Source: Trileptium ribeirensis
Lineage: Eukaryota > Nematoda > Enoplea > Enoplida > Thoracostomopsidae
Assembly (NCBI GenBank): GCA_030248225.1
Contig: JASANE010027972.1
Location: forward strand, 1-64,000
Length of the DNA: 64,000 bases
Reading direction: 5' to 3'
In this document: piece by piece, positions 1 to 33,375 of the stretch
Layout: every line of letters starts with the position of its first letter
Position numbering within the stretch: position 1 is the first letter of the stretch
Notes under the pieces: generated by a model
The model's input: the letters and a program-made list of their open reading frames with translations, nothing else
What the model was told of the DNA's origin: nothing
Database searches by the model: none
Position numbers and translations under genes: made by a program

Positions 1-2897
1 TTTGCTTTCAGATACAATGGTAGTAGATTTTATGGGAGTTTTTATTGATTCTTTACATTATAATGAACAAAATATTACTGAGAAGTGGGACATTTTCAAG
101 TACGAGGACGGCCTGTATTTCCAACAAATTGGGAAAATAAAGGCCAAGGAGAGAAATTTAAACAGAAAACAATTGGAATCAAATATCAGAATAACACAAG
201 CCCTAGTGTGTCGCTACCCCCAAGATCCAATATTTAAAGCACAATTAAAAAAATTAAATGTGAAACAGAATTTATAAATGCTTTCTACATAGCAAGTTGT
301 AAACATAATACATACTACAGTGATTTTGTGGACGACAAATTATCATTGTCGACCACCAAATCGCTACAACGCAAGGATTGGGAGCAGCGACATCTTTTTT
401 CACTTATGTCTTCGAGCGGTGCATTGTTGTATGGTAGTGCAAGTATTCTCCGTGAAGTACGTCATCAGTACTCAGTGCTATTCACATGATAACCAGTTAA
501 TGAGGATATGCTAAGCTTATTTTTGGATCAACCAAATTTTCCTTGTTTGAACAACGAGGACAAAATGATATTAGATAAGGAAATTACAGTAGATGAAGTT
601 TTATCTGCAATACGCTCATGCCTAGGTAAAAAGACGCCGGGATTAGACGGGATTCCAATTGAGTTTTACGTACTTTTCGCGGAGAAATTTTCGCCAATTT
701 TATGTGCATTATACAACTCTTTTTTGCAATTGGATATGATGAATTTGTCGGCATATGATGGAGTTATAACTTTGTTATATAAGGGTAACGGTGAAAGGTG
801 TAAAAGGGAAAATTGGCGACCAATAACACTTCTTAACACAGACTATAAAATCTTCTCAAAACTGTTGCCAAAAAGGTTGGAAAAAGTGATGCAAAAATTG
901 GTCCACACCGACCAAACAAGCTCCGTTCCTACTCATACCATACAAGACAGTCTCAATCATGTGAGGTGCGTAATTGATTACGTAAACGAATCAAACGCTG
1001 ACGCTTGTATTCTGTCTCTTGATCATCAAGCTGCTTTCGATATGGTTGAGTGGAATTTTGTTATAAAAACGTTGGCGAAGATAAATTTTGGTTCAAATTT
1101 CATTCAATTTATAAAAACGATCTATAAAAAGGATTTTACAAGGTCAGCGGTAATAGTAAACAGCTTTGTATCGCGACCTTTCTATGTAGGTAGAGGGTTT
1201 CGTCAGGGTTGTCCGTTATCACCGTTATATGTGGTGACTTCTGAAGTGGTCGCACATTATATTCGGATCAATACCATGTTAACGGGAATACCGTTATGTG
1301 GAACAAATACTAGAATAACAAAGTTTGCAGACGATACTAGTATTTTTATTACAAACTGGAACGAGGTCCAAAAAGTTTTTGATACTTTCAATTGGTATAG
1401 AATGGAATCAGGTAGCCGTCTAAAACTCCCAAAAACTCAATTATTACGATTAGGTTCCTTCAGGCAGTATCAAGTGCCTAACATCTGGCGCCATTTAGTC
1501 GTAGAAAAATTAAAACTTTATGATGTTTGCGTGACTTCTGGGGACTTCGATACAGAAGAAAATTGGAGCAAAAGTATTGACTCAATAGAAAGATTAGAAA
1601 ATAAAATTCCACCGCATGGTATTTCTATTTTTGGGAAGAATCATTTTGCTATGATCTATTATTTGTGTATGTTTAACTATATTTGTAATGTTGCAACGCC
1701 AACGTTGAGAACGACAAAAAGGGCCTATAAAATGTTACGGCAGTTTCTATGGTACCCATCTAGAACAAATGTCGTAAAACAACAAATTTTGATGTTGCCT
1801 CCAGATAAGGGAGGAATCGGCTTTCCAGATTTAGAAATTCGCGTTAAAGTTAACCGACTGAGCTTTTACATACACATCCTAACTTTTAAGGAAATTCTGA
1901 GTTGGAAAAGAGGCTTTTACCATTTTTATAGCAAAATAGAGGGACTAACCAAACAACAAACAAATGCTGCGGCTGTGCCTAAGTTCTATAAAGAAATTAG
2001 TCTTGCTGTTATAGAATCAGGGTTCAGCAAAACAGGGGAATTTTGTTGGATTTTCGGTAAACGATTCTCCATCATGAAAATAAGACCGAAACTAATTTAT
2101 GGGTTGTGGATAAATAATAAATACATTTCAAACATGATAACCCCAAATTTACGCTGGACAGAAACCTTGGGTTCAACTCAACAGTATGTTCAAAAATCGT
2201 GGGAATGGGCAAAATCAAAATTTACTGATGGTAAGGTGAGGAACTTACATTACAAACTTAGGCACCAGCGGTTTTTTACGAATGATAGAGTATCGAACTT
2301 TACTGTGACGCAGAGTACGTGTCCTTTTTGTTTATTACAAGGGTTTGAGGTAGACGAAACAAATGAACACGTTTTTATATACTGTAGTAGAGCATACGAT
2401 TTCTACACAGTTTGGACCCCAATGCTGAAACGTATAGCCGATGTTAACACAATTGAATTATCGGATTTAATCTTAGGAAGAAGACTAATGTCTAAAAGCA
2501 AACAAATATGCTTTAATTTTGTTATACAGCATTGTCAGTTTGCTTTGCGAAAAGCACGTTACATGTTTAATTTTGATGGAAAATTGGAATCCCCGGAAAA
2601 AATTTTCGAAAAAAATGTTTTTAAATCGCTTTGTAGGATTAGAACCCGTACAAAGCGTCAACTTTCCTTCACAATGTTTAGTGATATAATTTCACCAATA
2701 GACACTATATTAGGTTTTCGGCTGTCACTATAATAGCGTGTTTTTGTCTTAAAGCTGTGTTTCTTGGAAGTATTTTGAAAAATAGATACAATGGTTGTTG
2801 TGTGGATTTATATGACATAATTATGTTCACATGCGTAACTATAACTGTATATCTCTATAAAAATGTTATAATGTTATTTGAATAAAATATCATACCC
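1..2897 (+). mobile_element. LINE, 3' two-thirds of ORF2 plus 3' UTR (arm 1 copy)
   Basis: This is the arm 1 counterpart of the LINE at 12960-17451. The window starts inside ORF2, between the endonuclease and reverse transcriptase domains. After the ORF2 stop (2733) comes an AT-rich 3' UTR with an AATAAA at 2881-2886. The element ends at about 2897, directly against the LDH exon 3 donor; positions 2898-2923 are the 3' target-duplication copy. There is no long poly(A) tail. The reverse transcriptase layout (QGCPLSP, FADD, C-terminal CCHC) fits the L1/Tx1 side of the non-LTR elements. Confidence 0.9.
2..2733 (+). pseudogene. LINE ORF2 reverse transcriptase, frameshifted (arm 1)
   Basis: Non-LTR reverse transcriptase that in life would copy LINE RNA into DNA at a nicked target. 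Frame 2-277 runs into a frameshift at about 258 (one T lost against arm 2). An in-frame stop near 488 follows, and 508-2733 is then open for 741 codons. Seen in the long part: LDGIPIEFY, WRPITLLN, motif A LSLDHQAAFD, GFRQGCPLSP, catalytic FADD (about 1327), and a C-terminal Cys-x2-Cys-x12-His-x4-Cys (CPFC...HVFIYC, about 2322-2387). One Leu codon in the SPLLY motif is missing against arm 2. It is better preserved than arm 2 after the fingers region, but the frameshift and stop make it inactive as it stands. Confidence 0.9.
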
Positions 2898-2899
2898 AC

Positions 2900-3010
2900 C
2901 TTTGAATATTTCAACGTTCTTTTGTACCAAATCGAGTCGACTTTCGCCTTCACGTTGTCGGGCACCAGCGGTTATTATACAAGCAGTACTGCCGGCCGAC
3001 ACAGCATAGT
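2900..3010 (-). CDS. LDH: L-lactate dehydrogenase exon 3, left copy (intact)
   Basis: The 111-base exon follows acceptor CTGCAG and ends AAAG before GTGGGT. With the last base of exon 2 it reads [19 protein letters not shown] then [18 protein letters not shown]. It supplies the mobile substrate loop: Arg101, Gln102 (the residue that selects pyruvate over oxaloacetate) and Arg109 in family numbering. Phase matches exon 2 (ends after base 1 of a codon). The LINE lies immediately downstream, so the splice donor beyond the GT is made of LINE 3' sequence. Any further exons of this copy lie left of the window. Confidence 0.93.
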
Positions 3011-3757
3011 CTGCAGGATAGAAATATACCCATTAGCGTAACTCACTAACATAACCATGTAATACGTAGAAATTATAATTGACGGCTATAAAGTAGTCTT
3101 CATGTGTTTTACTTGGTGAACCTTCTGCTCTGAGATCTACAAAAAGATCCGTCAGATATGGGACAGCGGAGTGTTTCTAATTTTTAGGTTCTTTTTTAAT
3201 TATGAGATCTTTCTTGTGTGTCTTATGGGAAATAGGTGACTTAATTTTTTAGAAAAATTATGAATCATCTTAAAACATTTAAAATCATCCAATACAATGA
3301 TTTACGATTCTCCAATGTTCGTAAGATCTCAATCATAGTCCAAAATTCTCATAATATACCATTAATTTGCATATATGCCGTCTAATGCCGGAAATAGCTT
3401 CTTTAAATGAGAACCAAGACGTGACCCAACTAATTGGGTTCTAATCAAAAGGAAAACAAAAATCGATTGCTGTATCATCAAGCGTGCATTTCGGTACGCA
3501 AGATAAACTGAGTGATCTCAATCCGTGGGCTGCCAGATCAAAGAATTGCTGCGTGCAGGTATTATTTTACTGTAATGGAGCCTTCAAGTTAAGTTGTGTG
3601 CAAAATGACTCTAAGTTGTCCAAGAGTCTATCGAAGCGCACACCGTTTCCGCACATAGCTTTACTAGACACTCCAGACAACTAGAAGAGTCTTACATGAC
3701 TGCAAGGTTTTGGATAGACAGTCTGCGCTGACTTAATTAATTAATTTTAATTTTGAT

Positions 3758-3786
3758 TCTATCGGACGTTAATTTTGTCCGATAGA
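3758..3786. other. Short hairpin in LDH intron 2 (left copy)
   Basis: TCTATCGGAC and GTCCGATAGA form a perfect 10-base stem around a 9-base AT-rich loop. The same structure is conserved in arm 2 near 12070-12098. Its role is unknown. The rest of 3011-4282 is AT-rich intron in which I see no gene. Confidence 0.6.
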
Positions 3787-4282
3787 GTCTCCCGCGACTA
3801 TAGCTAACACGCGCATCAAAATTTCAATTTCATACCTTGGAGTCAGTCAAAAAATGTAATTGTTAACAATTTGAAATTTTCCACGATGTAGCACTGCCAA
3901 AATTTGAATTTCTCGCCTCGCCAACTGTTAAAATTTGAATTTCTACTGTCATGGAATAAATCAAAACATTTATCGCATAAATCAGTCCGACAGGACACTA
4001 TAGTCTGTCCTATATAGTCAGCCTAAACTAGACAGATTATCGAGAGAGATACATACGGCTGCAAGGAAAACACGTATAGCTAGCTCGTGCTATAGCAATG
4101 TCCACTGAATCTACTTTGATAGCCGGACACGACTAAGCCAGGCTGCACTCAACTTATCGTAAACGAGTCATAAGTCTGTATTAAATAATACCCAAGATTA
4201 CTAATTGATATCTAAGTCAACTACTAAATTTCACTTTTATATCAATAATCAAACAACAAACAACTGCCCCATAGTAAAGCAA

Positions 4283-4540
4283 GGTGGCCGCGTGGCCCAG
4301 TGGTTAGAGCGCCTGCTTCATAATCGTGAAGTTAGGAGTTCGAATCCAGTGGTCGCGTTAATCTCATTGGGCAAGGGACTCAGCCACAATTGCTTCGCAG
4401 TACCTATGCGTTAAACAGGTACCAGACTTTGGTCTAGGCGGATAAGATGATGGGTGGTGTGAAGGGCACTCATCATGGCCAGCTTCACACAATGCTTCGG
4501 CATAATATCCCGGATTCGAGTGCCAATTGCATGTTTATCC
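4283..4540 (+). mobile_element. tRNA-derived SINE (copy 1)
   Basis: The head looks like a tRNA gene with RNA polymerase III boxes: A box TGGCCCAGTGG at 4293-4303 and B box GTTCGAATCC at 4338-4347. A shared non-tRNA body of about 185 bases follows. The same unit occurs in arm 2 (11316-11573, minus) and at 45438-45703. It is a short retroposon that depends on a LINE for copying. The acceptor stem does not close, so it is not a working tRNA gene. Confidence 0.88.
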
Positions 4541-4587
4541 TACTAGAGCAAGACTAAGCAGAGAAGACAACCCAATTGGCAATGTAA

Positions 4588-4746
4588 CATCTTTAGAGAT
4601 ATCAGTAAGTATCTAAATTCATATTTTTCATCGTCATATCCATCTTTAGAGATATCAGTAAGTATCTAAATACATATTTTTCATCGTCATATCCATCTTT
4701 AGAGATATCAGTAAGTATCTAAATACATATTTTTCATCGTCATATT
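4588..4746 (+). repeat. 53-base minisatellite, three units, at the SINE tail
   Basis: Units start at 4588, 4641 and 4694 with CATCTTTAGAGATATCAG and differ at a single position or so. They directly follow the SINE and look like tandem duplication of SINE 3' flank. The mirror copy is at 11111-11266. Confidence 0.9.
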
Positions 4747-5239
4747 ACAGAAAACAGTAAAAATATTGCACTGAAATTTTAGTAAGTGTGCTAAGACAAC
4801 CACAAAGACTGTCGCAAATATAGTAAGGGAAGCGATAAAATATAAAAATGTCCAATTTTCCACATTCAGAGCTCCAAACCTAAAATAATCTAAATGAACA
4901 TTCTCGGTTAGGCTGAAGTAGAACCATGTTTCACTAAGTTTCAGAAAAAACTGATAACAATCTTACATTATATTCAACTATTTAAAAGCCGATTAAAATT
5001 ATACACTTTTGTTCATTTGTTATATATTACAGCTTTAGTGGTTTACTCTAAAGATGCTTTTTCCTTGCACATATAGCAAGTATTAAAATCTTAGATGCTT
5101 TTTGAAAAATTGGAATTCCTCACAAACCAAAATTGTGAAGATTCAAAGATATAAATAGCAACATGGAATTACTTAAATATTCAATTCAAATTACTTCATT
5201 AATTATTTCCAAAACTGTAACAGCGCACGAATTCTTGGC

Positions 5240-6120
5240 GTTCTAGATATATATTTGAAAACTGTACTATTAAGTGGAGCTTGTGTGTTGCAGGCGTGAA
5301 AGCTTGTAAATTCCGTCTGGGTGTGTGTGATCGACTATAACTCGGGAACGACTTAACTGATATCCATGATCTTGGGCTCATTCGAACCGCACGATGTACA
5401 CTACCGAGCATTTTTTGATTTGGAGTCTGGTTCAGGGATCAGGATTTTTGCGCCATTTTAGTCCATTTTAGTACCCTTCCCGAAAGCAAGGTTATTTTTA
5501 TTCTAACTTTCGAATTTTTTTCTCTCGTTGGTTTTATTTTATAGTTAAATGATAAATGCCGATGCGACTTTTTTGTTTTATGGTTAAGGCTCCGGTTCTA
5601 AGTTATGGGATTTGAGATATGACACGCTCGTCGCTCCTCGACCCAAAATTATAAAATTTGTTTTGACGTCTTGGGCGGCTGACAAAATTCACTTGGGGGT
5701 TCTCGGGCATGGTAAACTCATTTCCAGTGTTGGTTTAGCTGTACAACCAGTGGTTTAATGGGTACGGGGATATGGCACCCCATGGTTAGGTGTCAGAGGT
5801 CAAAATTATGGTTTTAACCCTATTTTAGTATATCCCCGTATTTTAGCAAGATTATTTTTATCTTAACTTGCGATATTTTTCTCTGGTTGCTTTATTTCAT
5901 AGTAAAAGGGAAATACCAATGCATTTTTTGATTTTTCGATTAGAGCTCCGGTTCTGGAGTTACGGGGTTTGAAGTATCGCGCCCTCGTACATCATCGAAC
6001 CAAAATTCGAAAATTTGCTCTGACGTCCTTGGCGAATGAAAAGTTTCGCTAGACGGTTTTTGGGCATCGGAAGCTCACGGATAGGTATATATAGCGAGAT
6101 TGGCAGTTCCGCCAGGTAAA
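5240..6120 (-). repeat. Dispersed repeat family, copy in arm 1
   Basis: Reverse-strand copy of a repeat also present at 9735-10615 and, more diverged, at 42340-42890. Hallmarks are GTCGTTCCCGAG followed by a GATCACA(C)ACAC stretch, and CCAGAGAAAAATA next to AAAATAA(C/T)CTTGCT. The first half is itself doubled (two related blocks of about 180 bases). No coding sequence is evident and the family is not recognised. Confidence 0.7.
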
Positions 6121-6206
6121 GCAGTATTTGTATTGGGCAAATGCTTCGGTTTTGAAACACGCATGGAAAGATTGGAAAACGCTAATCTTATTAGTGTACA
6201 TAGTAC

Positions 6207-6324
6207 CTTTAGAAGCTTTGATAGTGCAATGTTTCATAAATGGCAGTCCATGTTGAAGATCCATTAATTCTCCTTTCAGTTTATTTTCCATAACGTCAAC
6301 GAGAGCAATTTCACTGGCAATATT
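6207..6324 (-). CDS. LDH: L-lactate dehydrogenase exon 2, left copy (intact)
   Basis: The 118-base exon runs from acceptor TTTTAG to AAAG|GTACTA. It reads [20 protein letters not shown] then [19 protein letters not shown]. This is the second half of the NAD-binding Rossmann fold, with the acidic residue (LVD) that contacts the adenosine ribose. The length equals the conserved vertebrate exon as I recall it. It is identical in coding sense to exon 2 of the right copy. Confidence 0.95.
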
Positions 6325-6782
6325 CTAAAATGTACAATTGTTATATATATCTGTATTAAGTTGATATTTGGCGCATCCTGGAAGACAGTTATATTTTATC
6401 GCAGAAGGTTCGGTACGTTAAAAAGCGACACCTATTTCATCCAAATCGTAAAAACTAAAAAATAAGGGCATCGCCAAGAATGAGTTGCGAACACTTGTCG
6501 AGGAATAGTATTATCAAGAGTTCATTACACAAAATTCGTAGAAGACTATGATACTTGGTTATACTCACGTACTTTCCTTATCAGATAAGCATAAAACAAT
6601 ATTAAAAACTAAGATGTAATAAAGGTGTGACCAAGAATTAGTTGCGAACACGCGATAAAGAATCGAATAACCAAGACTTCATTAAACAAAATTCGTAGAA
6701 GAGTATGACATTCATTCATACCCATGTACTTAACTGTATTCGATAATGTCCATACAAGCAGATAGTTGAGGGAAAAGAAGTA

Positions 6783-6910
6783 TTATCGTCCGCTGAGGCG
6801 TCGCAATCCACTATAAGCGCCTCAAGCGCCAGCAGCCGCCCCTCCTTCCCCGAGGATCCGGTTACCACCCTATGCAACCTCGGTATTCGCTTTAGGCTCA
6901 GTGGCCAGAA
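6783..6910 (-). repeat. GC-rich block in LDH intron 1
   Basis: A stretch of about 130 bases that is clearly GC-richer than its surroundings and is conserved at about 8935-9070 in arm 2. It looks like a fragment of an unrecognised element. The rest of intron 1 holds nothing I can name. Confidence 0.4.
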
Positions 6911-7330
6911 CGTTTTCAGCCCTAAGGTTGAGTTAAACATTGATTCAAATGTAAAGTTTTAACTTAAATTAAGCCAAGTTTGACTCGTATTGAGTAGATA
7001 CGTAACCCAAATTGAATCTGTTTGATACAAGGTTTATTATTAAAATCCACTGACTCGACATTCAAAATTTTATTCAACGGTTTTACAGTGGTGTTTAATT
7101 TCAGATATTTGACCACAGAGTAGGGCGGCCAATAACCCGCGGTTCTGACAGTGTAAACATGCCGATGATTGCCTAGATTTCCTGGTTTTTGCAAATGGAG
7201 TTTTCTCAACTCGCAACCGTAAGACCGATCTGTTGAGTCGACCCCCACAGTGCTTTGGTAGCAGTTTCTTCCCTCATTTTCCTCCTTGTTGCAGGAGGAT
7301 AGAAACACTTTCAATAATTCGAAAACATAC

Positions 7331-7465
7331 TTGTACTAAAATACTAAACGCACACGCCATTCCCACTTGACCAACGCCAACAATGGTAACTTTGCCGTGA
7401 ATTGTTTCATGTAACGGTGCAATTTCTTTGAATAAGCCTTCCATCTCATGAACTACCGTAGACAT
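7331..7465 (-). CDS. LDH: L-lactate dehydrogenase exon 1, left copy (intact, start codon)
   Basis: Forty-five codons from ATG at 7465 to CAA before GTATGT. N-terminal arm MSTVVHEMEGLFKEIAPLHE, then beta-1 and the dinucleotide-binding loop GVGQVGMACAFSIL (GxGxxG). Phase 0 junction to exon 2. LDH interconverts pyruvate and lactate with NADH in the cytosol. The start is chosen because it is the first in-frame ATG and gives the usual LDH N-terminal arm. The partner ATG of the right copy is 910 bases away on the other strand, so the two genes would share one divergent upstream region. Confidence 0.94.
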
Positions 7466-8374
<909 letters not shown>

Positions 8375-8519
8375 ATGTCTATTTCGGTAGTTTGCATCAA
8401 GAGATAGAAGGCTTATTCAAAGAAATTGCACCGTTACATGAAACAATTCACCGCCAAAAGTTTCCATTGTTGGCGTTGGTCAAGTGAGCATGGCATGTGC
8501 TTTTAGTATTTTAGTACAA
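8375..8519 (+). pseudogene. LDH: L-lactate dehydrogenase exon 1, right copy (broken)
   Basis: 145 bases against 135 in the left copy. Small insertions after codon 2 and around the HETIH segment shift the frame; a TAG follows within 11 codons. The last glycine of the GxGxxG loop is changed to Ser (GVGQVSMACAF). Donor GTATG is kept. Because the damage is a cluster of 1-5 base insertions close to the palindrome fold, it may be consensus error and not a biological mutation. Confidence 0.88.
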
Positions 8520-9531
8520 GTATGATTTTCGAATTATTGAAAGTGTTTCTATCCTCCTCAACAAGGAGGAAAATGAGGGAAGAAACTGCTACCAAAGCAC
8601 TGTGGGGGTCGACTCAACAGATCGGTCTTACGGTTGCGAGTTGAGAAAACTCCATTTGCAAAAACCAGGAAATCTAGGCAATCATCAGGCATGTTTACAC
8701 TGTCAGAACCGCGGGCCTATTGGCCGCCCATACTATATAGTCAAATATCTGAAATTAAACACCACTGTAAAACCGTTGAACTAAAGATTTTGAACCGTCG
8801 AGTCAGTGGATTTTAATAATAGACCTTGTATCAAACAGATTCAATTTGGGTTACGTATCTACTCAATACGGAGTCAAACTTGGCTTAATTTAAGTTAAAT
8901 CTTTACATTTGAATCAATGTTTAACTCAACCTTAGGGCTGAAAACGTTCTGGCCATTGAGCCTAAAGCGAATACCGAGGTTGCATAGGGTGGTAACCGGA
9001 TCCTCGGGGAAGGAGGGGCGGCTGCTGGCCCTTGAGGCGCTTATAGTGGATTGCGACGCCTCAGCGGACGATAATACTTCTTTTCCCTCAACTATCTGCT
9101 TGTATGGACATTATCGAATACAGTTAAGTACATGGGTATGAATGAATGTCATACTCTTCTACGAATTTTGTTTAATGAAGTCTTGGTTATTCGATTCTTT
9201 ATCGCGTGTTCGCAACTAATTCTTGGTCACACCTTTATTACATCTTAGTTTTTAATATTGTTTTATGCTTATCTGATAAGGAAAGTACGTGAGTATAACC
9301 AAGTATCATAGTCTTCTACGAATTTTGTGTAATGAACTCTTGATAATACTATTCCTCGACAAGTGTTCGCAACTCATTCTTGGCGATGCCCTTATTTTTT
9401 AGTTTTTACGATTTGGATGAATAGGTGTCGCTTTTTAACGTACCGAACCTTCTGCGATAAAATATAACTGTCTTCCAGGATGCGCCAAATATCAACTTAA
9501 TACAGATATATATAACAATTGTACATTTTAG

Positions 9532-9649
9532 AATATTGCCAGTGAAATTGCTCTCGTTGACGTTATGGAAAATAAACTGAAAGGAGAATTAATGGATCTT
9601 CAACATGGACTGCCATTTATGAAACATTGCACTATCAAAGCTTCTAAAG
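9532..9649 (+). CDS. LDH: L-lactate dehydrogenase exon 2, right copy
   Basis: Intact 118-base exon after TTTTAG, ending AAAG|GTACTA. It encodes the same residues as the left copy ([15 protein letters not shown] then [17 protein letters not shown]). Its intact state between the broken exons 1 and 3 speaks against long-term pseudogene decay. Confidence 0.93.
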
Positions 9650-9734
9650 GTACTATGTACACTAAATAAGATTAGCGTTTTCCAATCTTTCCATGCGTGT
9701 TTCAAAACCGAAGCATTTGCCCAATACAAATACT

Positions 9735-10615
9735 GCTTTACCTGGCGGAACTGCCAATCTCGCTATATATACCTATCCGTGAGCTTCCGATGCCCAAAAA
9801 CCGTCTAGCGAAACTTTTCATTCGCCAAGGACGTCAGAGCAAATTTTCGAATTTTGGTTCGATGATGTACGAGGGCGCGATACTTCAAACCCCGTAACTC
9901 CAGAACCGGAGCTCTAATCGAAAAATCAAAAAATGCATTGGTATTTCCCTTTTACTATGAAATAAAGCAACCAGAGAAAAATATCGCAAGTTAAGATAAA
10001 AATAATCTTGCTAAAATACGGGGATATACTAAAATAGGGTTAAAACCATAATTTTGACCTCTGACACCTAACCAGGGGGTGCCATATCCCCGTACCCATT
10101 AAACCACTGGTTGTACAGCTAAACCAACACTGGAAATGAATTTACCATGCCCGAGAACCCCCAAGTGAATTTTGTCAGCCGCCCAAGACGTCAAAACAAA
10201 TTTTATAATTTTGGGTCGAGGAGCGACGAGCGTGTCATATCTCAAATCCCATAACTTAGAACCGGAGCCTTAACCATAAAACAAAAAAGTCGCATCGGCA
10301 TTTATCATTTAACTATAAAATAAAACCAACCAGAGAAAAAATTCGAAAGTTAGAATAAAAATAACCTTGCTTTCGGGAAGGGTACTAAAATGGACTAAAA
10401 TGGCGCAAAAATCCTGATCCCTGAACCAGACTCCAAATCAAAAAATGCTCGGTAGTGTACATCGTGCGGTTCGATGAGCCCAAGATCATGGATATCAGTT
10501 AAGTCGTTCCCGAGTTATAGTCGATCACACACACCCAGACGGAATTTACAAGCTTTCACGCCTGCAACACACAACCTCCACTTAATAGTACAGTTTTCAA
10601 ATATATATCTAGAAC
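9735..10615 (+). repeat. Dispersed repeat family, copy in arm 2
   Basis: Mirror of 5240-6120. Two related blocks (about 9810-9990 and 10160-10330) share GGACGTCAGA or GACGTCAAAA, an AATTTTGG block, an ACCGGAGC block and a CCAGAGAAAAA block. The end carries GTCGTTCCCGAG and CACACACAC. The third genomic instance in this window is 42340-42890. Confidence 0.7.
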
Positions 10616-11110
10616 GCCAAGAATTCGTGCGCTGTTACAGTTTTGGAAATAATTAATGAAGTAATTTGAATTGAATATTTAAGTAATTCCATGTTGCTAT
10701 TTATATCTTTGAATCTTCACAATTTTGGTTTGTGAGGAATTCCAATTTTTCAAAAAGCATCTAAGATTTTAATACTTGCTATATGTGCAAGGAAAAAGCA
10801 TCTTTAGAGTAAACCACTAAAGCTGTAATATATAACAAATGAACAAAAGTGTATAATTTTAATCGGCTTTTAAATAGTTGAATATAATGTAAGATTGTTA
10901 TCAGTGTTTTCTGAAAATTAGTGAAACATGGTTCTACTTCAGCCTAACCGAGAATGTTCATTTAGATTATTTTAGGTTTGGAGCTCTGAATGTGGAAAAT
11001 TGGACATTTTTATATTTTATCGCTTCCCTTACTATATTTGCGACAGTCTTTGTGGTTGTCTTAGCACACTTACTAAAATTTCAGTGCAATATTTTTACTG
11101 TTTTCTGTAA

Positions 11111-11266
11111 TATGACGATGAAAAATATGTATTTAGATACTTACTGATATCTCTAAAGATGGATATGACGATGAAAAATATGTATTTAGATACTTACTGA
11201 TATCTCTAAAGATGGATATGACGATGAAAAATATGAATTTAGATACTTACTGATATCTCTAAAGAT
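11111..11266 (-). repeat. 53-base minisatellite, arm 2 copy
   Basis: Three reverse-strand units with GATATCTCTAAAGATG, the mirror of 4588-4746. The unit number is the same as in arm 1, so the arms separated after the array formed. Confidence 0.9.
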
Positions 11267-11315
11267 GTTACATTGCCAATTGGGTTGTCTTTCTCTGCTT
11301 AGTCTTGCTCTAGTA

Positions 11316-11573
11316 GGATAAACATGCAATTGGCACTCGAATCCGGGATATTATGCCGAAGCATTGTGTGAAGCTGGCCAGGATGAATGCCCTTCACACC
11401 ACCCATCATCTTATCCGCCTAGACCAAAGTCTGGTACCTGTTTAACGCATAGGTACTGCGAAGCAATTGTGGGCGAGTCCCTTGCCCAATGAGATTAACG
11501 CGACCACTGGATTCGAACTCCTAACTTTACTATTATGAAGCAGGCGCTCTAACCACTGGGCCACGCGGCCACC
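11316..11573 (-). mobile_element. tRNA-derived SINE (arm 2 copy)
   Basis: Reverse complement of copy 1. B box on the minus strand at 11509-11518, A box near 11555-11565. Several single-base differences and a small change in the anticodon-like loop separate it from arm 1. Confidence 0.87.
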
Positions 11574-12847
11574 TTGCTTTACTATGGGGCAGTTGTTTGT
11601 TGTTTGATTATTGCCACAGAAGTGAAATTTAGTAGTTGACTTAGATATCAATTAGTAATCTTGGGGATTATTTAATACAGACTTATTACTCGTTTATGAT
11701 AAAGTTGAGTGCAGCCTGGCTTAGTCGTGTCCGGCTATCAAAGTAGAATTAGTGGACATTGCTAAGCAGCACGAGCTAGCTATACGTGTTTTCCTTGCAG
11801 CCGTATGTATCTCTCGATAATCTGTTTAGTTTAGGCTGACTATATAGGACAGATTATAGTGTCCTGTTGTACTGATTTATGCGATAAATGTTTTGATTTA
11901 TTCCATGACAGTAGAAATTTAGTTTTAAACAGTTGGCTAGCGAGAAATTCAAATTTTGGCAGTGCTACATCGTGGAAAATTTCAAATTGTTAACAATTAC
12001 ATTTTTTTACTTACTCTAAGGTACTAAATTAAAATTTTGATGCGCGTGTTAGCTATAGTCGCGGGAGACTCTATCGGACAAAATTAACGTCCGATAGAAT
12101 CAAAATTAAAATTAATTAATTAAGTCAGCGCAGACTGTCTATCCAAAACCTTGCAGTCATGTAAGACTCTTCTAGTTGTCTGGAGTGTCTAGTAAAGCTA
12201 TGTGCGGAAACGGTGTGCGCTTCGATAGACTCTTGGACAACTTAGAGTCATTTTGCACACAACTTAACTTGAAGGCTCCATTACAGTAAAATAATACCTG
12301 CACGCAGCAATTCTTTGATCTGGCAGCCCACGGAATTGAGATCACTCAGTTTACATTTTCTTACCGAAATGCACGCTTGATGATACAGCAATCGATTTTT
12401 GTTTTCCTTTTGATTAGAACCCAATTAGTTGGGTCACGTCTTGGTTCTCATTTAAAGAAGCTATTTCCGGCATTAGACGGCATATATGCACGAACTTATA
12501 TTATGAGAATTTTGGACTATGATTGAGATCTTACGAACATTGGAGAATCGTAAATCATTGTATTGGATGATTTTAAAGAAATGTTTTAAAATACGATTCA
12601 TACTTTTTTAAAAAATTAGTCACCTATTTCCCATAAGACACACAAGAAAGATCTCATAATTAAAAAAGAACCTAAAAATTAGAAACACTCCGCTGTCCCA
12701 TATCTGACGGATCTTTTTGTAGATCTCAGAATAGAAGGTTCACCAAGTAAAACACATGAAGACTACTTTATAGCCGTCAATTATAATTTTATGTATTACA
12801 TGGTTATGTTAGTGAGTTACGCTAATGGGTATATTTCTGATCTGCAG

Positions 12848-12957
12848 ACTATACTGTGTTGCTGGTAGTACTGCTTGTATAATAACCGCTGGTGCCCGAC
12901 AACGTGAAGGCGAAAGTCGACTCGATTTGGTACAAAAGAACGTTGAAATATTCAAAG
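12848..12957 (+). pseudogene. LDH: L-lactate dehydrogenase exon 3, right copy (one-base deletion)
   Basis: 110 bases against 111 in the left copy. One base is missing between 12858 and 12868, where the left copy reads VSAGS, so the frame shifts at the exon start. The rest ([23 protein letters not shown]) is unchanged. Acceptor CTGCAG and donor GT are present. It is inactive as read; the intact left version and single lost base leave room for a consensus error. Confidence 0.87.
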
Positions 12958-12959
12958 GT
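12934..12959 (+). repeat. LINE target-site duplication, left copy
   Basis: 26 bases starting AAAAGAAC and ending CAAAGGT, repeated at 17452-17477 with one mismatch. They contain the last 24 bases of LDH exon 3 plus the intron GT. This is the length expected for target-primed reverse transcription. Confidence 0.9.
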
Positions 12960-13125
12960 GGGTATGATATTTTCTTCAAATAACATTATAACATGTTTGT
13001 AGAGATATACAGTTATAGTTACGCATGTGAACATGATTATCTCGTATAAATCCACACAACAACCATTGAATCTAACATTCAAAATACTTCCAAGAAACAC
13101 AGCTTTAAGACAAAAAAACACGCTA

Positions 13126-16100
13126 TTATAGTGACAGCCGAAAACCTAATACAGTGTCTATTGGTGAAATTATATCATTAAACATTGTGAAGAAAAGTTG
13201 ACGCTTTGTACGCGTTCTAATCCTACAAAGTGACTTAAAAACATTTTATTCGAAAATTATTTCCGGGGATTCCAATTTTCTATCAAAATTAAACATGCAA
13301 CGCGCTTTCCACAAAGCAAACTGACAATGCTGTATAACAAAATTAAAGCATATTTGTTTGCTTTCAGACATTAGTCTTCTTCCTAAGATTAAATCCGATA
13401 ATTCAATTGTGTTAACCTCGGCTATACGTTTCAACATTGGCGTCAAAACTGTGTAGAAATCATATGCTCTACTACAGTATATAAAAACGTGTTCATTTGT
13501 TTCGTCTACCTCAAACCCTTGTAATAAACAAAAACGACACGTACTCTGCGTCACGGTAAAGTTCGATACTCTATCATTCGTAAAAAGCCGCTTATGCCTA
13601 AGTTTATAATGTAAGTTTCTCACCTTACCATCAGTAAATTTTGATTTTTCCCATTCCCACGATTTTTGAACATACTGTTGAGTTGAACCGAAGGTTTCTG
13701 CCCAGCGTAAATTTGGGGTTATCATGTTTGAAATGTTTTTATTATTTATCCACAACCCATAAATTTGTTTCGGTCTTATTTTCACTATGGAGAATTGTTT
13801 ACCGAAAATTCCCCTGTTTTCCTGAACCCTGATTCTATTACAGCAAGACGAATTTCTTTATAAAATTTAGGCACAGCCGCAGCATTTGTTTGTTGTTTGG
13901 TTAGTCCCTCTATTTTGCTATAGAAATGGTAAAAGCCTCTTTTCCAACTCAGAATTTCCTTAACAGTTAGGATGTGTATGTAAAAGCTCAGGCGGTTAAC
14001 TTTAACGCGAATTTCTAAATCTGGAAAGCCGATCCCTCCCTTATCTGGAGGCAACATCAAAATTTGTTGTTTTACGACATTTGCTCTAGATGGGTACCAT
14101 AGAAACTGCCGTAATATTTTATAGGCCCTTTTTGTCGTTCTCAACGTTGGCGTTGCAACATTACAAATATAGTTAAACATACACAAATAATAGATCATAG
14201 CAAAATGAATCTTCCCAAAAATAGAAATACCATGCGGTGGAATTTTATTTTCTAATCTTTCTATTGAGTCAATACTTTTGCTCCAATTTTCTTCTGTATT
14301 GAAACCCTCAGAAGTCACCCAAACACCATAAAGTTTTAATTTTTCTACGACTAAAGGGCGTCAGATGTTAGGCACTTGACACTGCCTGAAGGAACCTAAT
14401 CGTAATAATTGAGTTTTTGGAAATTTTAGACGGCTACCTGATGCCATTCTATACCAATTGAAAATATCAAATACTTTTTGGACCTCGTTCCAGTTTGTAA
14501 TAAAAATGCTAGTATCGTCTGCAAACTTTGTTATTCTAGTATTTGTTCCACATAACGGTATTCCCGTTAACATGGTAGTGATCCGAATATAATGTGCGAC
14601 CACTTCAGAAGTCACCACATATAACAGTGGTGATAACGGACAACCCTGACGAAACCCTCTACTTACATAGAAAGGTTGCGATACAAAGCTGTTTACTATT
14701 ACCGCTGACCTTGTAAAATCTTTTTTATAGATCGTTTTTATAAATTTAATGAAATTTGAGCCAAAATTCATCTTCTCCAACGTTTTTATAACAAAATTCC
14801 ACTCAACCATATCGAAAGCAGCTTGATGGTCAAGAGACAGAATACAAGCGTCAGCGTTTGTTTCGTTTACATAATCAATTACGCACCTCACATGATTGAG
14901 ACTGTCTTGTATGGTACGAGTAGGAACGGAGCTTGTTTGGTCGGTGTGGACCAATTTTTGCATCACTTTTTCCAACCTTTTTGACAACAGTTTTGCAAAG
15001 ATTTTATAGTCTGTGTTAAGAAGTGTTATTGGTCGCCAATTTTCCCTTTTACACCTTTCACCGTTACCCTTATATAACAAAGTTATAATTCCATCATATG
15101 CCGACAAATTCATCATATACAATTGCAAAAAAGAGTTATATAATGCACATAAAATTGGCGAAAGTTTCTCCGCGAAAAGTACGTAAAACTCAATTGGAAT
15201 CCCGTCTAATCCCGGCGTCTTTTTACCTAGGCATGAGCGTATTGCAGATAAAACTTCATCTACTGTAATTTCCTTATCTAATATCATTTTGTCCTCGTTG
15301 TTCAAACAAGGAAAATTTGGCTGATCCAAAAATAAGCTTAGCATATCCTCATTAACTGATTCTGATGTGAATAGTACCGAGTACTGATGACGTACTTCAC
15401 GGAGAATACTTGCACTATCATACAACAATGCACCGCTCGAAGACATAAGTGAAAAAAGATGTCGCTGCTCCCAATCCTTGCGTTGTAGCGATTTGGTGGT
15501 CGACAACGATAATTTGTCGTCCACAAAATCACTGTAGTATGTATTATGTTTACAACTTGCTATGTAGAAAGAATTTATTACTTCTGCTTCGCATTTAAAT
15601 TTTTTTAATTGTGCTTTAAATATTGGATCCTGGGGGTAGCGGCACACTAGGTCTTGTGTTATTCTGATTTTTGATTCCAATTGTTTTCTGTTTAAATTTC
15701 TCTCCTTGGCCTTTATTTTCCCAATTTGTTGGAAATACAGGCCGACCTCGTACTTGAAAATGTCCCACTTCTCAGTAATATTTTGTTCATTATAATCTAA
15801 AGAATCAATAAAAAGTCCCATAAAATCTACTACCATTGTATCTGAAAGCAAAAGAGTATTTGCTTTAAAGCAACCTCTTCCTCTTTCGAGAGTGCCGAGT
15901 TTAATTTTTATACGAAACAGTCGATGATCCGTTAAATTAACACTTCGCGCGGTGCAGAGTGCATTTTCTGACAGATTCAATGTTGTATAGACTCTGTCCA
16001 GTCTCGACTGCGTGTTGTGGATCGGCGATAAGTATGTAAAAAATCATTTTTCTGCGGGTTCTTCTGTCTATAGACATCATGTACGGACAAGAGATCTTTT

Positions 16101-16638
16101 AGCATGATGAATTCTGGTAACCCTATTTGCCGATCCACAGACGCATTGGATCTGTCAAGAAACACATCTTCCATAACATTAAAATCCCCCAAAATTCATA
16201 GCCCTTGGTGTGTGTACCATTCTGATTGATTCACAAAATCTAATATATCATAAAACTGAGCACGATTGTCCGGATTTGCCGGTGCATAAACACCTATGCA
16301 GAATAATGTAAACAAATTGACCGAGAGTGAAATCCCGATAGCTCTTCCCTGAATTTGAAACTGTAACTGTTCGAGCGAAGAACATAATTTAAGATTAATC
16401 AAGAAACACACGCCGGTTTTATTATTTTCTGGATTCTTAAAGGAGTGAAATATTTTGGAAGAACCACAGAAAATTCTATCAAAAACCTCACTCTCTTCCT
16501 CGTTTTGAAAATGTGTCTCTTGTAGGCATACAATGTCTAAATCTTTAGTTTTTCGAAAACAATTGATGCTTTCCTAAAGTGTTTAATACCGTTGCAGTTT
16601 AATGTTGCAATCGATACAAACTCCAGGGAAGTCGCCAT
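13126..16638 (-). pseudogene. LINE ORF2: AP-endonuclease and reverse transcriptase (broken)
   Basis: ORF2 of about 1,170 codons starting MATSLEFVSIATLNCNGIK at 16638, inside the end of ORF1. Endonuclease motifs seen: LNCNGI, CLQETH, YAPA, LGDFN, QSRLDRVY, DHR. The reverse transcriptase has LDGIPIEFY, WRPITLLN, LSLDHQAAFD, GFRQGCPLSPLLY and FADD, then a C-terminal CCHC. Damage: frameshifts near 16560, 16195, 15990 and 13790, a nonsense codon at 14361 (Trp in arm 1) and an early stop at 13246. The uninterrupted core is 14361-15980. It is dead in this copy, but arm 1 shows different lesions, so the parent element was intact recently. Confidence 0.92.
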
Positions 16639-17448
16639 TGGGATCCACTCTATGACAATTTTGAGATAGACATACGCCTCGACAAAAAGACATTGCCCGT
16701 TTACCGGTAGACTTCAAGCCGGACTCGGCGAGACTGCGTTTATGACCTCGCCCAAATTGTTCCACGACGCAATATAATATGCTAGTGTACTCGCTGTGAT
16801 ATAATGGATGCTGCGACATATTATGTCGCAAGTAAGTCAATAAGTCACCAAACAAATTTAAACAACCTAGGGGCCATTTGTCCCCACCGCCAGCATCTTT
16901 GTGGTCTGCCTTCAGACCACAGCTCCATACACTTCTACCTGTATTCGCTTCAATGATGAGACCACCAGTTGACAGTAAATGAGTCCGTAGTTTTTTGGAC
17001 TGTGCATATTTCTGCCAATTAGCGACATAAAGTAACTCCCACATTGTTCGCGTGTAGTGGGTGAGTTCACCATTCCACAGAATTTGGCTGTGTAACCTCT
17101 TTATTTTTACGGGATCGTCAAGTGCCAAAATAGCTGTTTCAATGTCCTTCTGCCCACAGAGCCGCGATTTCCAGACCCCTAAGAACTTTTCGACAGAACT
17201 GTAATCCTCACCCCAAATATTTATTGGGGTTTCACAAACGTGAAAGATGGAGAGACAGTTGTTCTTATGATGCTTAGACCAAATGTACTCCTTATGTATC
17301 GATCCATTTTTATCGAAAGGTAGACGTTTTGATTGTTTCACGGCCAAAAAATCGTTGAAGTGCTTATAGTTAGTGAAATTTTCTGCTTCTGCTGGCAGAC
17401 ACTCGTCAAGCTGTGTTCCAACCGGTTCTTCAGCCTTAAAACCAGTTT
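16583..17448 (-). CDS. LINE ORF1 fragment with NADAR (DUF1768) domain
   Basis: The frame is open from the truncated 5' end of the LINE to TAA at 16583; there is no genuine ATG at its beginning. In order: a short acidic lead (LDECLPAEAENF), then from about 17240 down to 16820 a NADAR domain. Matches to the family: GEDYSSVEKF (family pattern VEHYFQAQK, with the conserved Glu), AILALDDPVKIKRL, LRTHLLSTGGLIIEANTG, WSCGL, and LNLFGDLLTYLR (family NLLGKLLMEVR). A Cys-rich tail follows (CRGVCLSQNCH, CIDC). NADAR enzymes cleave N-glycosidic bonds in ADP-ribose or riboflavin-pathway compounds. The stop lies 56 bases inside ORF2, tying this ORF to the LINE. ORF1 normally encodes an RNA-binding protein; here the enzyme-like domain is the surprise. 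Confidence 0.83.
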
Positions 17449-17451
17449 CTT

Positions 17452-17477
17452 AAAAGAACATTGAAATATTCAAAGGT
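17452..17477 (+). repeat. LINE target-site duplication, right copy
   Basis: Second copy of the 26-base duplication, one mismatch. It contains a relic of the exon 3 end and its donor (AAAG|GTCGG), now orphaned inside the intron. The intron sequence that follows is presumably the original intron 3 start. Confidence 0.9.
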
Positions 17478-26301: not shown

Positions 26302-27294
26302 TTAGACGTGGTACATGTCGCGGACTTGAGCGACGAATGCACCGAGAAGGTTGCGTTTGAATTGTCTGCGCCATTGAAACTCCATCAGGGTGCGATCGAA
26401 GAGATCGGCGGCAATACCTCGACGCTTGCGCAGGAAGTTTTTAAGGACGCCCCATAAACCATCTATATTTTGAGTGTGGATCTCGGCATTGTCAGGGCTG
26501 ACGAATTGTCTATTGAAATGATTGACAGTCGCATGCAAAAACGGCGATGGACGTGGGATATTGGCAAAGCCGCGGACATAGGTAGCGTAGCTATCTGTAA
26601 CGACGCGAGTTCCAGGTTGAATATGCTGGAAAATGAGCGGCATTATGGTTACCATAGTTCTGTCTGGAACGGGAAAAAGGAGGCAGCGACCTGTTTGACG
26701 CTCGATCATGCCTACAACCCATCCATGTTTGCGGCGTGGGAGACCTCTATGATATTTTTGCTTAAAAAACATAGATTCATCAACTTCAACGTCTATTCCT
26801 GGGCCGCCCAGTGTCATGTTGCGGACGTGATGTCTGTCAAATGCTACAGCTATGTCGCGACAATAGTTGTACCAATTAGTGCAGGCCTCTTTACCGACTT
26901 TAGCTTGTTTCTTTGCCCATTCTGAGGGAAGTTCGTCAATATAAGCGAAGATTAAAATTAGTACTTGGTTTAGTGATAGCTTATGGTGCGCGAAAAAAGA
27001 AGAGTGACGAATGGAATATTTTTGGCGGCAATTTTGGCATCTCCACTCGTAATTGTCAATTCTGGCGATATCATTACGAGCAGCTAAATACATATGATTG
27101 CCGCATGTGCAAGTTTTACTGTTACTGATTTGGCCCCATTCAGCTAATAGCTGAATTGTAGAGTCATAACTGATGGTGCGTTGAATCATTTCAACGAAAA
27201 TGATGTTAATGTCATTTATATGTAAAGCATCTATTACATTATTATTGTGTATTATACTGTATCTAGCAGAGCGGGGTCTGCCACGTTGAGCCAT
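26302..27294 (-). CDS. Merlin (IS1016/IS1595-like) transposase
   Basis: 330-codon uninterrupted frame. N-terminal MAQRGRPRSAR contains an AT-hook-like GRP core. Next is a zinc ribbon (CTCG near residue 58 and CQNC near 83), then the ISXO2-like DDE domain: first Asp in DVEVDESMFF, second in VVTDSYATY, and the third position in HTQNIDGLWGVLKN. Family members have Glu in that last motif (NIE); this copy has Asp (GAT). Cut-and-paste transposase acting on the 36-base TIRs. Being unbroken it is a recent arrival, yet the Glu to Asp change could lower or abolish activity. Confidence 0.92.
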   Translation of the reverse strand: MAQRGRPRSARYSIIHNNNVIDALHINDINIIFVEMIQRTISYDSTIQLLAEWGQISNSKTCTCGNHMYLAARNDIARIDNYEWRCQNCRQKYSIRHSSFFAHHKLSLNQVLILIFAYIDELPSEWAKKQAKVGKEACTNWYNYCRDIAVAFDRHHVRNMTLGGPGIDVEVDESMFFKQKYHRGLPRRKHGWVVGMIERQTGRCLLFPVPDRTMVTIMPLIFQHIQPGTRVVTDSYATYVRGFANIPRPSPFLHATVNHFNRQFVSPDNAEIHTQNIDGLWGVLKNFLRKRRGIAADLFDRTLMEFQWRRQFKRNLLGAFVAQVRDMYHV

Positions 27295-27911
27295 AATATA
27301 TGCGGTATATATAATCTAAAATTCTGAAAAAATATCACATATATATATCGTCTCGTCATTCTGCGTCTATCTATGTTACTTGTGTCTATTTTGCTCATAA
27401 AAATTTTTTTACCGATTTTTCAACGTACCGGGTCCCCCTTAGTACTGAGGTCAAAATTTGAAAAATTTGAAAGTTGTTGGAATATGGTCAAATTTGGTAC
27501 CATTGAACTCGCCTCGTCGAGCTGAGTCGAATGGTACCAAAATCATCGCTGTACGACGATTCCCTGATTTTATCCCCCCCAATCGAACCAGTGCCGGATT
27601 TTGTATATGCATAGACCCTTGCGGAATATGGAAGCGTCAAGATCCCTGAATCCACCGCATACTTCAAACTGATATTATACCAACTAAAATATAGGCTGGA
27701 TTTAAGGTGTAGTGATTTTAGCCCATCCCCATCTCACCATTGTGTTGCTTTTTGGCATTAATATGCTGTTATTCCAAGTAAGCTGGTGAAGCCAATAGAT
27801 TAAACTAAACACAAAGAAAAATTTTATTCAATTTTAAAAGCATCACTCAAATACTTAGCCCTATGTATAGTTAGGTATGGTTTTACTATTGGGGTTTGTT
27901 ATAAAATTTAG

Positions 27912-29390: not shown

Positions 29391-30529
29391 ATAATTTACT
29401 AAATGTCACAGAGACTTATCTCCAAATACGGACTAATAAAAATGTACAACTTATGTATTCAAATATATATAGTTTTGGCGTCAAATTTATTGCTATCGAT
29501 TATATATTTCATTGTCTAACCACCATATACGAGCTAAAATACGTTTGTTTAATACCATTATGACTGTTACTTATATGAATATAAAATAATGATACACATT
29601 TTACCGTTTTACGTTGGTCCGCAATTCACATTTGCATATAATTGATGTACTTCTAGTAGTTACTGTCTCAAGTTGTGCTATCAACTAGTAACACGTAAAC
29701 GTGGGTGACGGAGGCATGGTGGTTAACAACGGCGTGAATAGTGCATACAGCTTGTGGAATTTCTAACATTTTTGGTAACAGTTTAAAAGTAACATACTCA
29801 TTTAAATCGAGTAGCTACACCTCATCTTCGAATTTTCACCATGAAAACAATTTTAAGAAACTGAATTTATTATGTAAAATAATGTTCGACTGCGACTCGG
29901 CTGCGACTGCTCCGGCTGCGACTCGCCACCTTCGGTGGCTCGTCTTGCCTCCGTCAATAACACACTTAATAATTTTTAACTCATTTTTAAGAGATTTTGC
30001 TTAATTTTAAGAGAATTTATAAAGGTAAGTAGATCACTCGTATATAGTCTTTTAGAAAACGTGAAGGTACATGTTATGTCAAAAAATGACCGAGATAGCA
30101 CGAACGGTTGTCGAGATATGATGAACTTAGGTTTCCCTAAGTCAATTTTAAGAGAATTTGCTTAATTTTTAAGGAAAGAGATGAAATACGTCAATCAGCT
30201 ATATACAGCTGTTTAGAAAACGTGAAAATACATTTTATGTAAAAAAATCGCCGAAATAGCACGAACGGTTGTCGAGATGCGGTGAAAAAGCTGAAAAAAT
30301 GGCAAAAATCCCTAAGTTTGAGGAACATTTGCTTAATTTTGAGTACAAAGCAATTTTCGTAGAAAAAAGTGCTCAATGAAAGGGCACTCCGCAAGAGAAT
30401 ATGCAACACGAAGAAAAAAAATTTCTAAAATCGGCCCAGGCGTTCAACCTGCAGACCTGTCTGTGACAAACAAAAAAAAGTCACAGAGAAAATTGAAATT
30501 TTGCGTCTAGTATATTGATATATATAAAG

Positions 30530-30652
30530 TTAAATGTACGCCTCCGGCTGCGACTCGCCACCTTCGGTGGCTCGTCATGCCTCCGTCAATAAAGTTAAAT
30601 GTACGCCTCCGGCTGCGACTCGCCACCTTCGGTGGCTCGTCTTGCCTCCGTC
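30530..30652 (+). repeat. 65-base subrepeat, two units
   Basis: Two copies of a unit that begins AAAGTTAAATGTACGCC and includes the GCCACCTTCGGTGGC hairpin and TGCCTCCGTC. The same unit occurs three times at 33178-33372. Confidence 0.9.
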
Positions 30653-33177
30653 TACTAGTAACACGTAAACGTGGGTGACGGAGGCATGGTGGTTAACAAC
30701 GGCGTGAATAGTGCATACAGCTTGTGGAATTTCTAACATTTTTGGTAACAGTTTAAAAGTAACATACTCATTTAAATCGAGTAGCTACACCTCATCTTCG
30801 AATTTTCACCATGAAAACAATTTTAAGAAACTGAATTTATTATGTAAAATAATGTTCGACTGCGACTCGGCTGCGACTGCTCCGGCTGCGACTCGCCACC
30901 TTCGGTGGCTCGTCTTGCCTCCGTCAATAACACACTTAATAATTTTTAACTCATTTTTAAGAGACTTTGCTTAATTTTAAGAGAATTTATAAAGGTAAGT
31001 AGATCACTCGTATACAGTCTTTTAGAAAACGTGAAGGTACATGTTATGTCAAAAAATGACCGAGATAGCACGAACGGTTGTCGAGATATGATGAACTTAG
31101 GTTTCCCTAATTCAATTTTAAGAGTATTTGCTTAATTTTTAAGGAAAGAGATTAAATACGTCAATCAGCTATATACAGCTGTTTACAAAACGTGAAAATA
31201 CATTTTATGTAAAAAAATCGCCGAAATAGCACAAACGGTTGTCGAGATGCGGTGAAAAAGCTGAAAAAATGGCAAAAATCCCTAAGTTTGAGCAACATTT
31301 GCTTAATTTTGAGTACAAAGCAATTTTCGTAGAAAAAAGTGCTCAATGAAAGGGCACTCCGCAAGAGAATATGCAACACGAAGAAAAAAAATTTCTAAAA
31401 TCGGCCCAGGCGTTCAACCTGCAGACCTGTCTGTGACAAACAAAAAAAAGTCACAGAGAAAATTGAAATTTTGCGTCTAGTATATTGATATATACTAGTA
31501 ACACGTAAACGTGGGTGACGGAGGCATGGTGGTTAACAACGGCGTGAATAGTGCATACAGCTTGTGGAATTTCTAACATTTTTGGTAACAGTTTAAAAGT
31601 AACATACTCATTTAAATCGAGTAGCTACACCTCATCTTCGAATTTTCACCATGAAAACAATTTTAAGAAACTGAATTTATTATGTAAAATAATGTTCGAA
31701 TGCGACTCGGCTGCGACTGCTCCGGCTGCGACTCGCCACCTTCGGTGGCTCGTCTTGCCTCCGTCAATAACACACTTAATAATTTTTAACTCATTTTTAA
31801 GAGACTTTGCTTAATTTTAAAAGAATTTATAAAGGTAAGTAGATCACTCGTATACAGTCTTTTAGAAAACGTGAAGGTACATGTTATGTCAAAAAATGAC
31901 CGAGATAGCACGAACGGTTGTCGAGATATGATGAACTTAGGTTTCCCTAAGTCAATTTTAAGAGAATTTGCTTAATTTTTAAGGAAAGAGATGAAATACG
32001 TCAATCAGCTATATACAGCTGTTTAGAAAACGTGAAAATACATTTTATGTAAAAAAATCGCCGAAATAGCACGAACGGTTGTCGAGATGCGGTGAAAAAG
32101 CTGAAAAAATGGCAAAAATCCTTAAGTTTGAGCAACATTTGCTTAATTTTGAGTACAAAGCAATTTTCGTAGAAAAAAGTGCTCAATGAAAGGGCACTCC
32201 GCAAGAGAATATGCAACACGAAGAAAAAAAATTTCTAAAATCGGCCCAGGCGTTCAACCTGCAGACCTGTCTGTGACAAACAAAAAAAAAAGTCACAGAG
32301 AAAATTGAAATTTTGCGTCTAGTATATTGATATATACTAGTAACACGTAAACGTGGGTGACGGAGGCATGGTGGTTAACAACGGCGTGAATAGTGCATAC
32401 AGCTTGTGGAATTTCTAACATTTTTGATAACAGTCTAAAAGTAACATACTCATTTAAATCGAGTAGCTACACCTCATCTTCGAATTTTCACCATGAAAAC
32501 AATTTTAAAAACTGAATTTATTATGTAAAATAATGTTCGACTGCGACTCGGCTGCGACTGCTCCGGCTGCGACTCGCCACCTTCGGTGGCTCGTCTTGCC
32601 TCCGTCAATAACACACTTAATAATTTTTAACTCATTTTTAAGAGACTTTGCTTAATTTTAAGAGAATTTATAAAGGTAAGTAGATCACTCGTATACAGTC
32701 TTTTAGAAAACGTGAAGGTACATGTTATGTCAAAAAATGACCGAGATAGCACGAACGGTTGTCGAGATATGATGAACTTAGGTTTCCCTAAGTCAATTTT
32801 AAGAGAATTTGCTTAATTTTTAAGGAAAGAGATGAAATACGTCAATCAGCTATATACAGCTGTTTAGAAAACGTGAAAATACATTTTATGTAAAAAAATC
32901 GCCGAAATAGCACGAACGGTTGTCGAGATGCGGTGAAAAAGCTGAAAAAATGGCAAAAATCCCTAAGTTTGAGCAACATTTGCTTAATTTTGAGTACAAA
33001 GCAATTTTCGTAGAAAAAAGTGCTCAATGAAAGGGCACTCCGCAAGAGAATATGCAACACGAAGAAAAAAAAATTTCTAAAATCGGCCCAGGCGTTCAAC
33101 CTGCAGACCTGTCTGTGACAAACAAAAAAAAAGTCACAGAGAAAATTGAAATTTTGCGTCTAGTATATTGATATATA

Positions 33178-33372: not shown

Positions 33373-33375
33373 TTA

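Follow-up and report, generated by a model that had tools for sequence, protein, structure and literature searches.

It is known that a NADAR domain can be carried by ORF1 of a long interspersed nuclear element (LINE): PMC12477816 reports it for Tx1 LINEs of Crassostrea gigas from Repbase. Here we describe such an element in the nematode Trileptium ribeirensis, in a stretch of 64,000 nucleotides (assembly GCA_030248225.1, contig JASANE010027972.1, positions 1–64,000; below, the window). Like the window element, the C. gigas LINEs belong to the L1/Tx1 group and have a YbiA-family NADAR in ORF1; they were compared with the families considered here by description only, and may be the same lineage. 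An earlier note on this DNA had taken a LINE ORF1 of this kind to be undescribed, which does not hold, as the kind is known from PMC12477816, the only such paper among the matches listed for NADAR or YbiA with a LINE ORF1. What is new here is the proof by target-site duplication (TSD), the added copies, a fuller ORF1, the selection evidence and the active-site data.

NADARs are also carried by other described systems. Positive-strand RNA viruses of invertebrates are, like the LINE, RNA-using selfish elements with a NADAR, for which action on host ADP-ribosylation has been proposed, but these NADARs are situated in the virus polyprotein, without a LINE (PMC9503650). The DarT1-NADAR toxin-antitoxin system likewise contains a NADAR, which strips ADP-ribose from guanine; that NADAR belongs to the BC4488 subfamily (Asp) and is paired with DarT, whereas the window NADAR has Glu and its neighbour is ORF2, no DarT transferase being adjacent to the window ORF1. 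More generally, NADARs of several families free ADP-ribose from guanine (PMC11543638, PMC11125620), and the roles of NADARs across eukaryotes are unclear (PMC11125620).

The window holds a 5'-truncated copy of an L1-type LINE with the following features.

17452–17477, minus strand: TSD, 5' copy, 26 bp, one mismatch to the 3' copy
12960–17451, minus strand: 5'-truncated LINE insertion, 4492 bp, poly(A) tail absent (delimited by the TSD; 3' end by sequence reading)
16583–17449, minus strand: ORF1 frame (C-terminal part of ORF1), 288 codons and a stop, the final residues coming from ORF2 sequence beyond a one-base gap
16817–17281, minus strand: NADAR domain, residues 57–211 of the ORF1 frame
13126–16638, minus strand: ORF2 (endonuclease and reverse transcriptase), broken into several frames (start and stop by sequence reading)
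16196–16573, 14361–16043, 13785–14360 and 13246–13857, minus strand: open pieces of ORF2
12934–12959, minus strand: TSD, 3' copy, 26 bp

Apart from the TSD, no 26-mers of the two regions compared match each other with one mismatch or none. Thus, the element spans 12960–17451 and its 5' end lies inside the ORF1 frame, as the earlier note had placed it. As ORF2 is split into several frames, the window insertion is a dead copy.

The frame ahead of ORF2 had been read as a NADAR by eye, and this is borne out by the Pfam profile PF08719, which matches residues 57–211 with 58.1 bits (E = 1.7e-15; profile positions 3–162 of 163; curated cut-off 35.1 bits); the domain also has the YbiA fold. The 288 codons stayed open in none of 2000 mononucleotide shuffles of the frame. 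Its first Met comes no earlier than residue 136, because the window copy is truncated. The window ORF1 is only 20–29% identical to 60 other NADARs, and a protein search with the single ORF1 sequence gave no match at E = 1e-3 (249 candidates). A profile search gave 3447 matches, among which there may be LINE ORF1s; the 120 of them listed include named animal NADARs from Branchiostoma, Lingula and Patella that are not in LINEs. The top Branchiostoma matches were considered as LINE ORF1s and rejected, each having two NADAR stretches. A viral structure library yielded NADAR proteins from giant viruses, phages and RNA viruses, as the fold predicts.

The assignment of the element to the L1/Tx1 group follows from the apurinic-type endonuclease and from the reverse transcriptase (RT), for which the nearest solved structure is LINE-1 ORF2p (E = 1.7e-61, compared with 8e-14 for R2); the TSD and the 5' truncation are also traits of this group. 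The window ORF2 scores 103.8 bits with RVT_1, and its endonuclease 20 bits, under the Pfam cut-off of 24.5; elsewhere the endonuclease scores 48.9 bits (L067) and 20.9 bits (L060, also below the cut-off). Relatives known from ORF2 alone (P0121–P0140) belong to the same LINE group and are 33–57% identical, most of the best 18 being at 46–57% on contigs of about 2–12.5 kb from the ena, jgi and lgn sources. Scans of viral_contigs and genome_contigs gave no result.

In the assembly (687,459,628 bases in 20,229 contigs, the window being the start of contig C18394), the search with the ORF1 protein yielded 90 matches at E ≤ 1e-3, the window included (136 scored of 347 candidates). Thirteen places besides the window (L059–L071) were fetched, picked by score and open frame and hence not at random. 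Two of them are sister insertions (C10720, or L059, and C3637, or L060) whose DNA is 91–95% identical to that of the window element where the pieces align. The ORF1 of L059 is open over 466 codons, and by eye a CCHC knuckle and an RRM-like part precede the NADAR; Pfam finds there NADAR alone (48.7 bits), with no match for the RRM, and in L068 zf-CCHC_3 scores 20.4 bits, under its cut-off of 27. ORF1 of the window LINE is thus a predicted nucleic-acid-binding protein with a candidate CCHC knuckle, probably an RRM-like part before it, and a C-terminal NADAR. In C3637 it contains an in-frame stop and a frame break. The earlier note had ORF1 stopping 56 bases inside ORF2; this is true of the window copy, where a one-base gap relative to both sisters, shortly before the point at which they stop, makes the frame run on, and is not a family trait, since both sisters stop 11 nt upstream of the ORF2 ATG.

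L1-type ORF2 sequence lies downstream of the NADAR in ten of the 13 places (L059–L067 and L070). The three left out are L068, whose contig ends at ORF1, L069, where L1-type ORF2 was not found in the stretch fetched, and the Gypsy-type L071. L068 and L067 belong to one family, their DNA being 86% identical over 818 bases. The NADAR-bearing LINE families are about 25–46% identical to the window family. Therefore ORF1 carries NADAR recurrently, in the window family and in related, divergent LINE families of this genome, and the domain is not a single transduced piece; its recurrence hints at a chemical arms race between elements and host. The expectation that other family members examined would carry it, and that the frame belongs to the element and not to a host exon, was upheld, as it lies within the TSD and is found with ORF2 in other insertions.

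The roles of active-site residues were taken from the Phytophthora nicotianae NADAR (8bau, YbiA family), in the numbering of PMC11543638, with these equivalents in the window, all by alignment.

17189–17191, minus strand: E87, equivalent of E43
17168–17170, minus strand: K94, equivalent of K50
16949–16951, minus strand: E167, equivalent of E125
16925–16927, minus strand: W175, equivalent of W133

The conserved Glu and Lys are thus kept as E87 and K94, and the Glu of the last strand, which defines the YbiA family of NADARs (E125; PMC11543638), is E167. The residue table comprised eight LINE rows (the window, L059, L060, L065–L068 and L070), one Gypsy, one SGNH-like, two A32-type and one SF1 row, L068 being counted as a LINE because its ORF1 is 86% DNA-identical to that of L067. 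Among the LINE rows E43 and E125 are kept in 8/8, and K50 and W133 in 7/8 each (W133 is Tyr in L070); the catalytic Glu/Lys/Glu is intact in seven of the eight. Judging by these residues, the LINE NADARs taken together are probably enzymes.

In one LINE family (L067/L068, NADAR frames uninterrupted) the domain is under purifying selection: the Nei–Gojobori (NG86) nonsynonymous and synonymous divergences are dN = 0.074 and dS = 0.477 over 168 NADAR codons (ratio 0.155), and the ratio is 0.176 over 272 aligned codons. The check for purifying selection named in the earlier note is thus positive for this family; for the window family, considered below, selection is not shown.

We propose, by analogy, that the LINE ORF1 protein (ORF1p) with its NADAR is a hydrolase countering host ADP-ribosylation of the element ribonucleoprotein (RNP), and give this reading an even chance, because NADARs release ADP-ribose from guanine and comparable proposals exist for RNA-virus NADARs. 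ORF1p would coat the element RNA and, bearing a CCHC knuckle, would bring the NADAR hydrolase into the LINE RNP; a host ADP-ribosyltransferase would attach ADP-ribose to guanines of the RNA or complementary DNA (cDNA), or to bound proteins, as a defence; NADAR would take it off the guanines or the proteins, and reverse transcription could continue.

Several observations weigh against this reading. Of the near-invariant ADP-ribose contacts, R79 is kept in 2/8 LINE rows, W89 in 4/8 and D130 in 4/8, and in all three window-family copies (window, C10720 and C3637) they are replaced by S, Y and R; the R93 equivalent of this family is M, so that, unlike the P. nicotianae protein, the window copy keeps none of these four. 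In the 60 other NADARs R79 is R in 55, and W89 and D130 are W and D in 60/60. These three contacts lie outside the Pfam definition, and hence are relevant to activity, not to NADAR membership. Single positions around R79–R93 are less certain, because the alignment is gapped there and the D86 equivalent of the window is Leu in one alignment and Glu in another. A nine-row table including the decayed L061–L064 is patchier (E43 8/9, K50 6/9, E125 7/9). The three close copies of the window family give NG86 dN/dS values of 1.37, 0.29 and 0.56 (234 codons, gapped codons and one C3637 stop codon excluded), decay after insertion being included, hence selection is not demonstrated for this family. The GC content of ORF1 is 0.433, versus 0.357 and 0.366 for ORF2. 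Finally, the precedent of guanine-modifying clam enzymes may not apply to this host. As three contacts are replaced in all three copies, the activity of the window family is uncertain, and its NADAR may be shifted in substrate or weakened.

The same replacements, together with L066, which is without the K50, W89 and D130 equivalents, would be expected if NADAR in the LINE ORF1 were a binding or structural module with no need for hydrolysis, such as a reader of nucleic acid or ADP-ribose or a part of RNP assembly. L1-type ORF1 proteins are chiefly RNA-binding, which also speaks for such a module. Yet the catalytic Glu/Lys/Glu persists in 7/8 LINE rows despite the low (20–29%) identity to the 60 other NADARs, and L065 retains R79, W89 and D130 as well (R, W, D), while L067, L068 and L070 retain two of the three; we consider a binding or structural module of this kind rather unlikely.

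Marginally less probable still is an action of NADAR on targets other than ADP-ribosylated nucleic acid, namely small molecules or RNA caps (NAD caps, cyclic ADP-ribose signals, RNA-repair products). NADARs have varied substrates: YbiA acts on riboflavin intermediates, and for viral NADARs action on ADP-ribose signals and a part in RNA repair have been proposed (PMC9503650, PMC11543638); for Ectocarpus, processing of transposition RNA intermediates has been suggested (PMC12477816). Against it, the fusion to a CCHC-bearing ORF1 that would remain on the element RNA favours a nucleic-acid or RNP substrate.

A one-off chimera, in which a host NADAR mRNA was joined to a LINE copy through template switching at insertion, would explain the higher GC content of ORF1 and the start of the frame at the insertion point, but is refuted by the recurrence of this ORF1 in two further insertions (L059, L060) and by eight more divergent loci where NADAR precedes an L1-type ORF2 (L061–L067, L070). 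Equally negligible is a host gene that adjoins or contains the LINE: animal NADARs do exist outside LINEs, as in Branchiostoma, Lingula and Patella, but the position of the frame within the TSD and its recurrence with ORF2 at other loci refute a host exon.

NADAR occurs in a great many copies in this genome: the search gave 2317 first-look candidates, and all 150 scored were over the cut-off. We examined 50 of these 150 places, chosen non-randomly as the best 30 (L005–L034) and 20 with long or varied frames (L035–L054); L055–L058 enter no count. An L1-type RT profile, the only kind of RT sought, was found in the flanks (up to about 1.5 and 2.5 kb) of 0/50 places. Forty of the places adjoin an A32-type ATPase, a TBP-like frame or other frames common to those loci (Pox_A32 26.3 and 24.4 bits, cut-off 22.8; TBP 112 bits), and ten adjoin an SF1 helicase (AAA_12, 97–101 bits). 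By these genes the A32-type/TBP-like loci look like Polinton- or adintovirus-like elements; for NADAR in such elements, the word NADAR occurs in no paper among the matches listed, and the matches listed for NADAR in bivalves do not include transposons.

Among the places fetched with ORF1, L071 (G000:C18068:31500-35500) has in one Gypsy-type frame Tudor (32.8 bits), NADAR (81.7), RVT_1 (106.3) and RNase H (133.7), with a protease match of 20.9 bits, below its cut-off. It resembles the Ectocarpus retrotransposon with a conserved NADAR (PMC12477816), the L071 NADAR standing before the weak protease match and the RT; the Ectocarpus element is an LTR element of a brown alga, whereas L071 additionally has Tudor, which is reported for another Ectocarpus Gypsy family (PMC12477816). 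In L069 (G000:C10416:28300-30300), positions 356–1423, a NADAR of 102.7 bits is followed in the same frame by an SGNH-hydrolase-like part (by eye). Further matches of the ORF1 search sit in frames of 852–2405 codons.

A possible, though tentative, explanation is convergent capture: unrelated mobile elements, namely at least two divergent LINE families, the Tudor-bearing Gypsy-type element, A32-type-ATPase elements and the SF1-helicase type, would each have taken NADAR as a counter-defence, the host having an unrecognised system for ADP-ribosylating their nucleic acids, like the guanine-modifying clam enzymes. With a LINE group keeping NADAR in ORF1, under purifying selection in one family, and other classes of NADAR elements in the same genome, one can test directly if ADP-ribosylation of mobile-element nucleic acid serves animals as a defence and if the elements reverse it.

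The rest of the window contains no Rfam matches at gathering scores and no tRNAs. The window has a large inverted repeat, whose other arm holds the 3' part of the LINE insertion a second time.

1–2897, plus strand: 3' part of the LINE insertion 12960–17451, second copy

The arms of this repeat (1–7649 and 8191–15852) are 96.7% identical, and the spacer between them includes an A-rich tract of 200 bp (7881–8080); the repeat is likely a fold-back assembly artefact, because the window starts at base 1 of its contig. At 51376–51966 (minus strand) the beginning of ribosomal protein L10 (uL16) is encoded without interruption over 134 residues (best E = 1.1e-81 against solved ribosomes), and this looks like a processed copy. 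A 337-codon frame at 26302–27315 (minus strand) resembles, by eye, an IS1595/ISXO2-type transposase. Finally, at 29676–33373 a unit of about 840 bp is present in repeated copies that are about 99% identical, and a 65-bp repeat forms arrays at 30524–30652 and 33177–33373.
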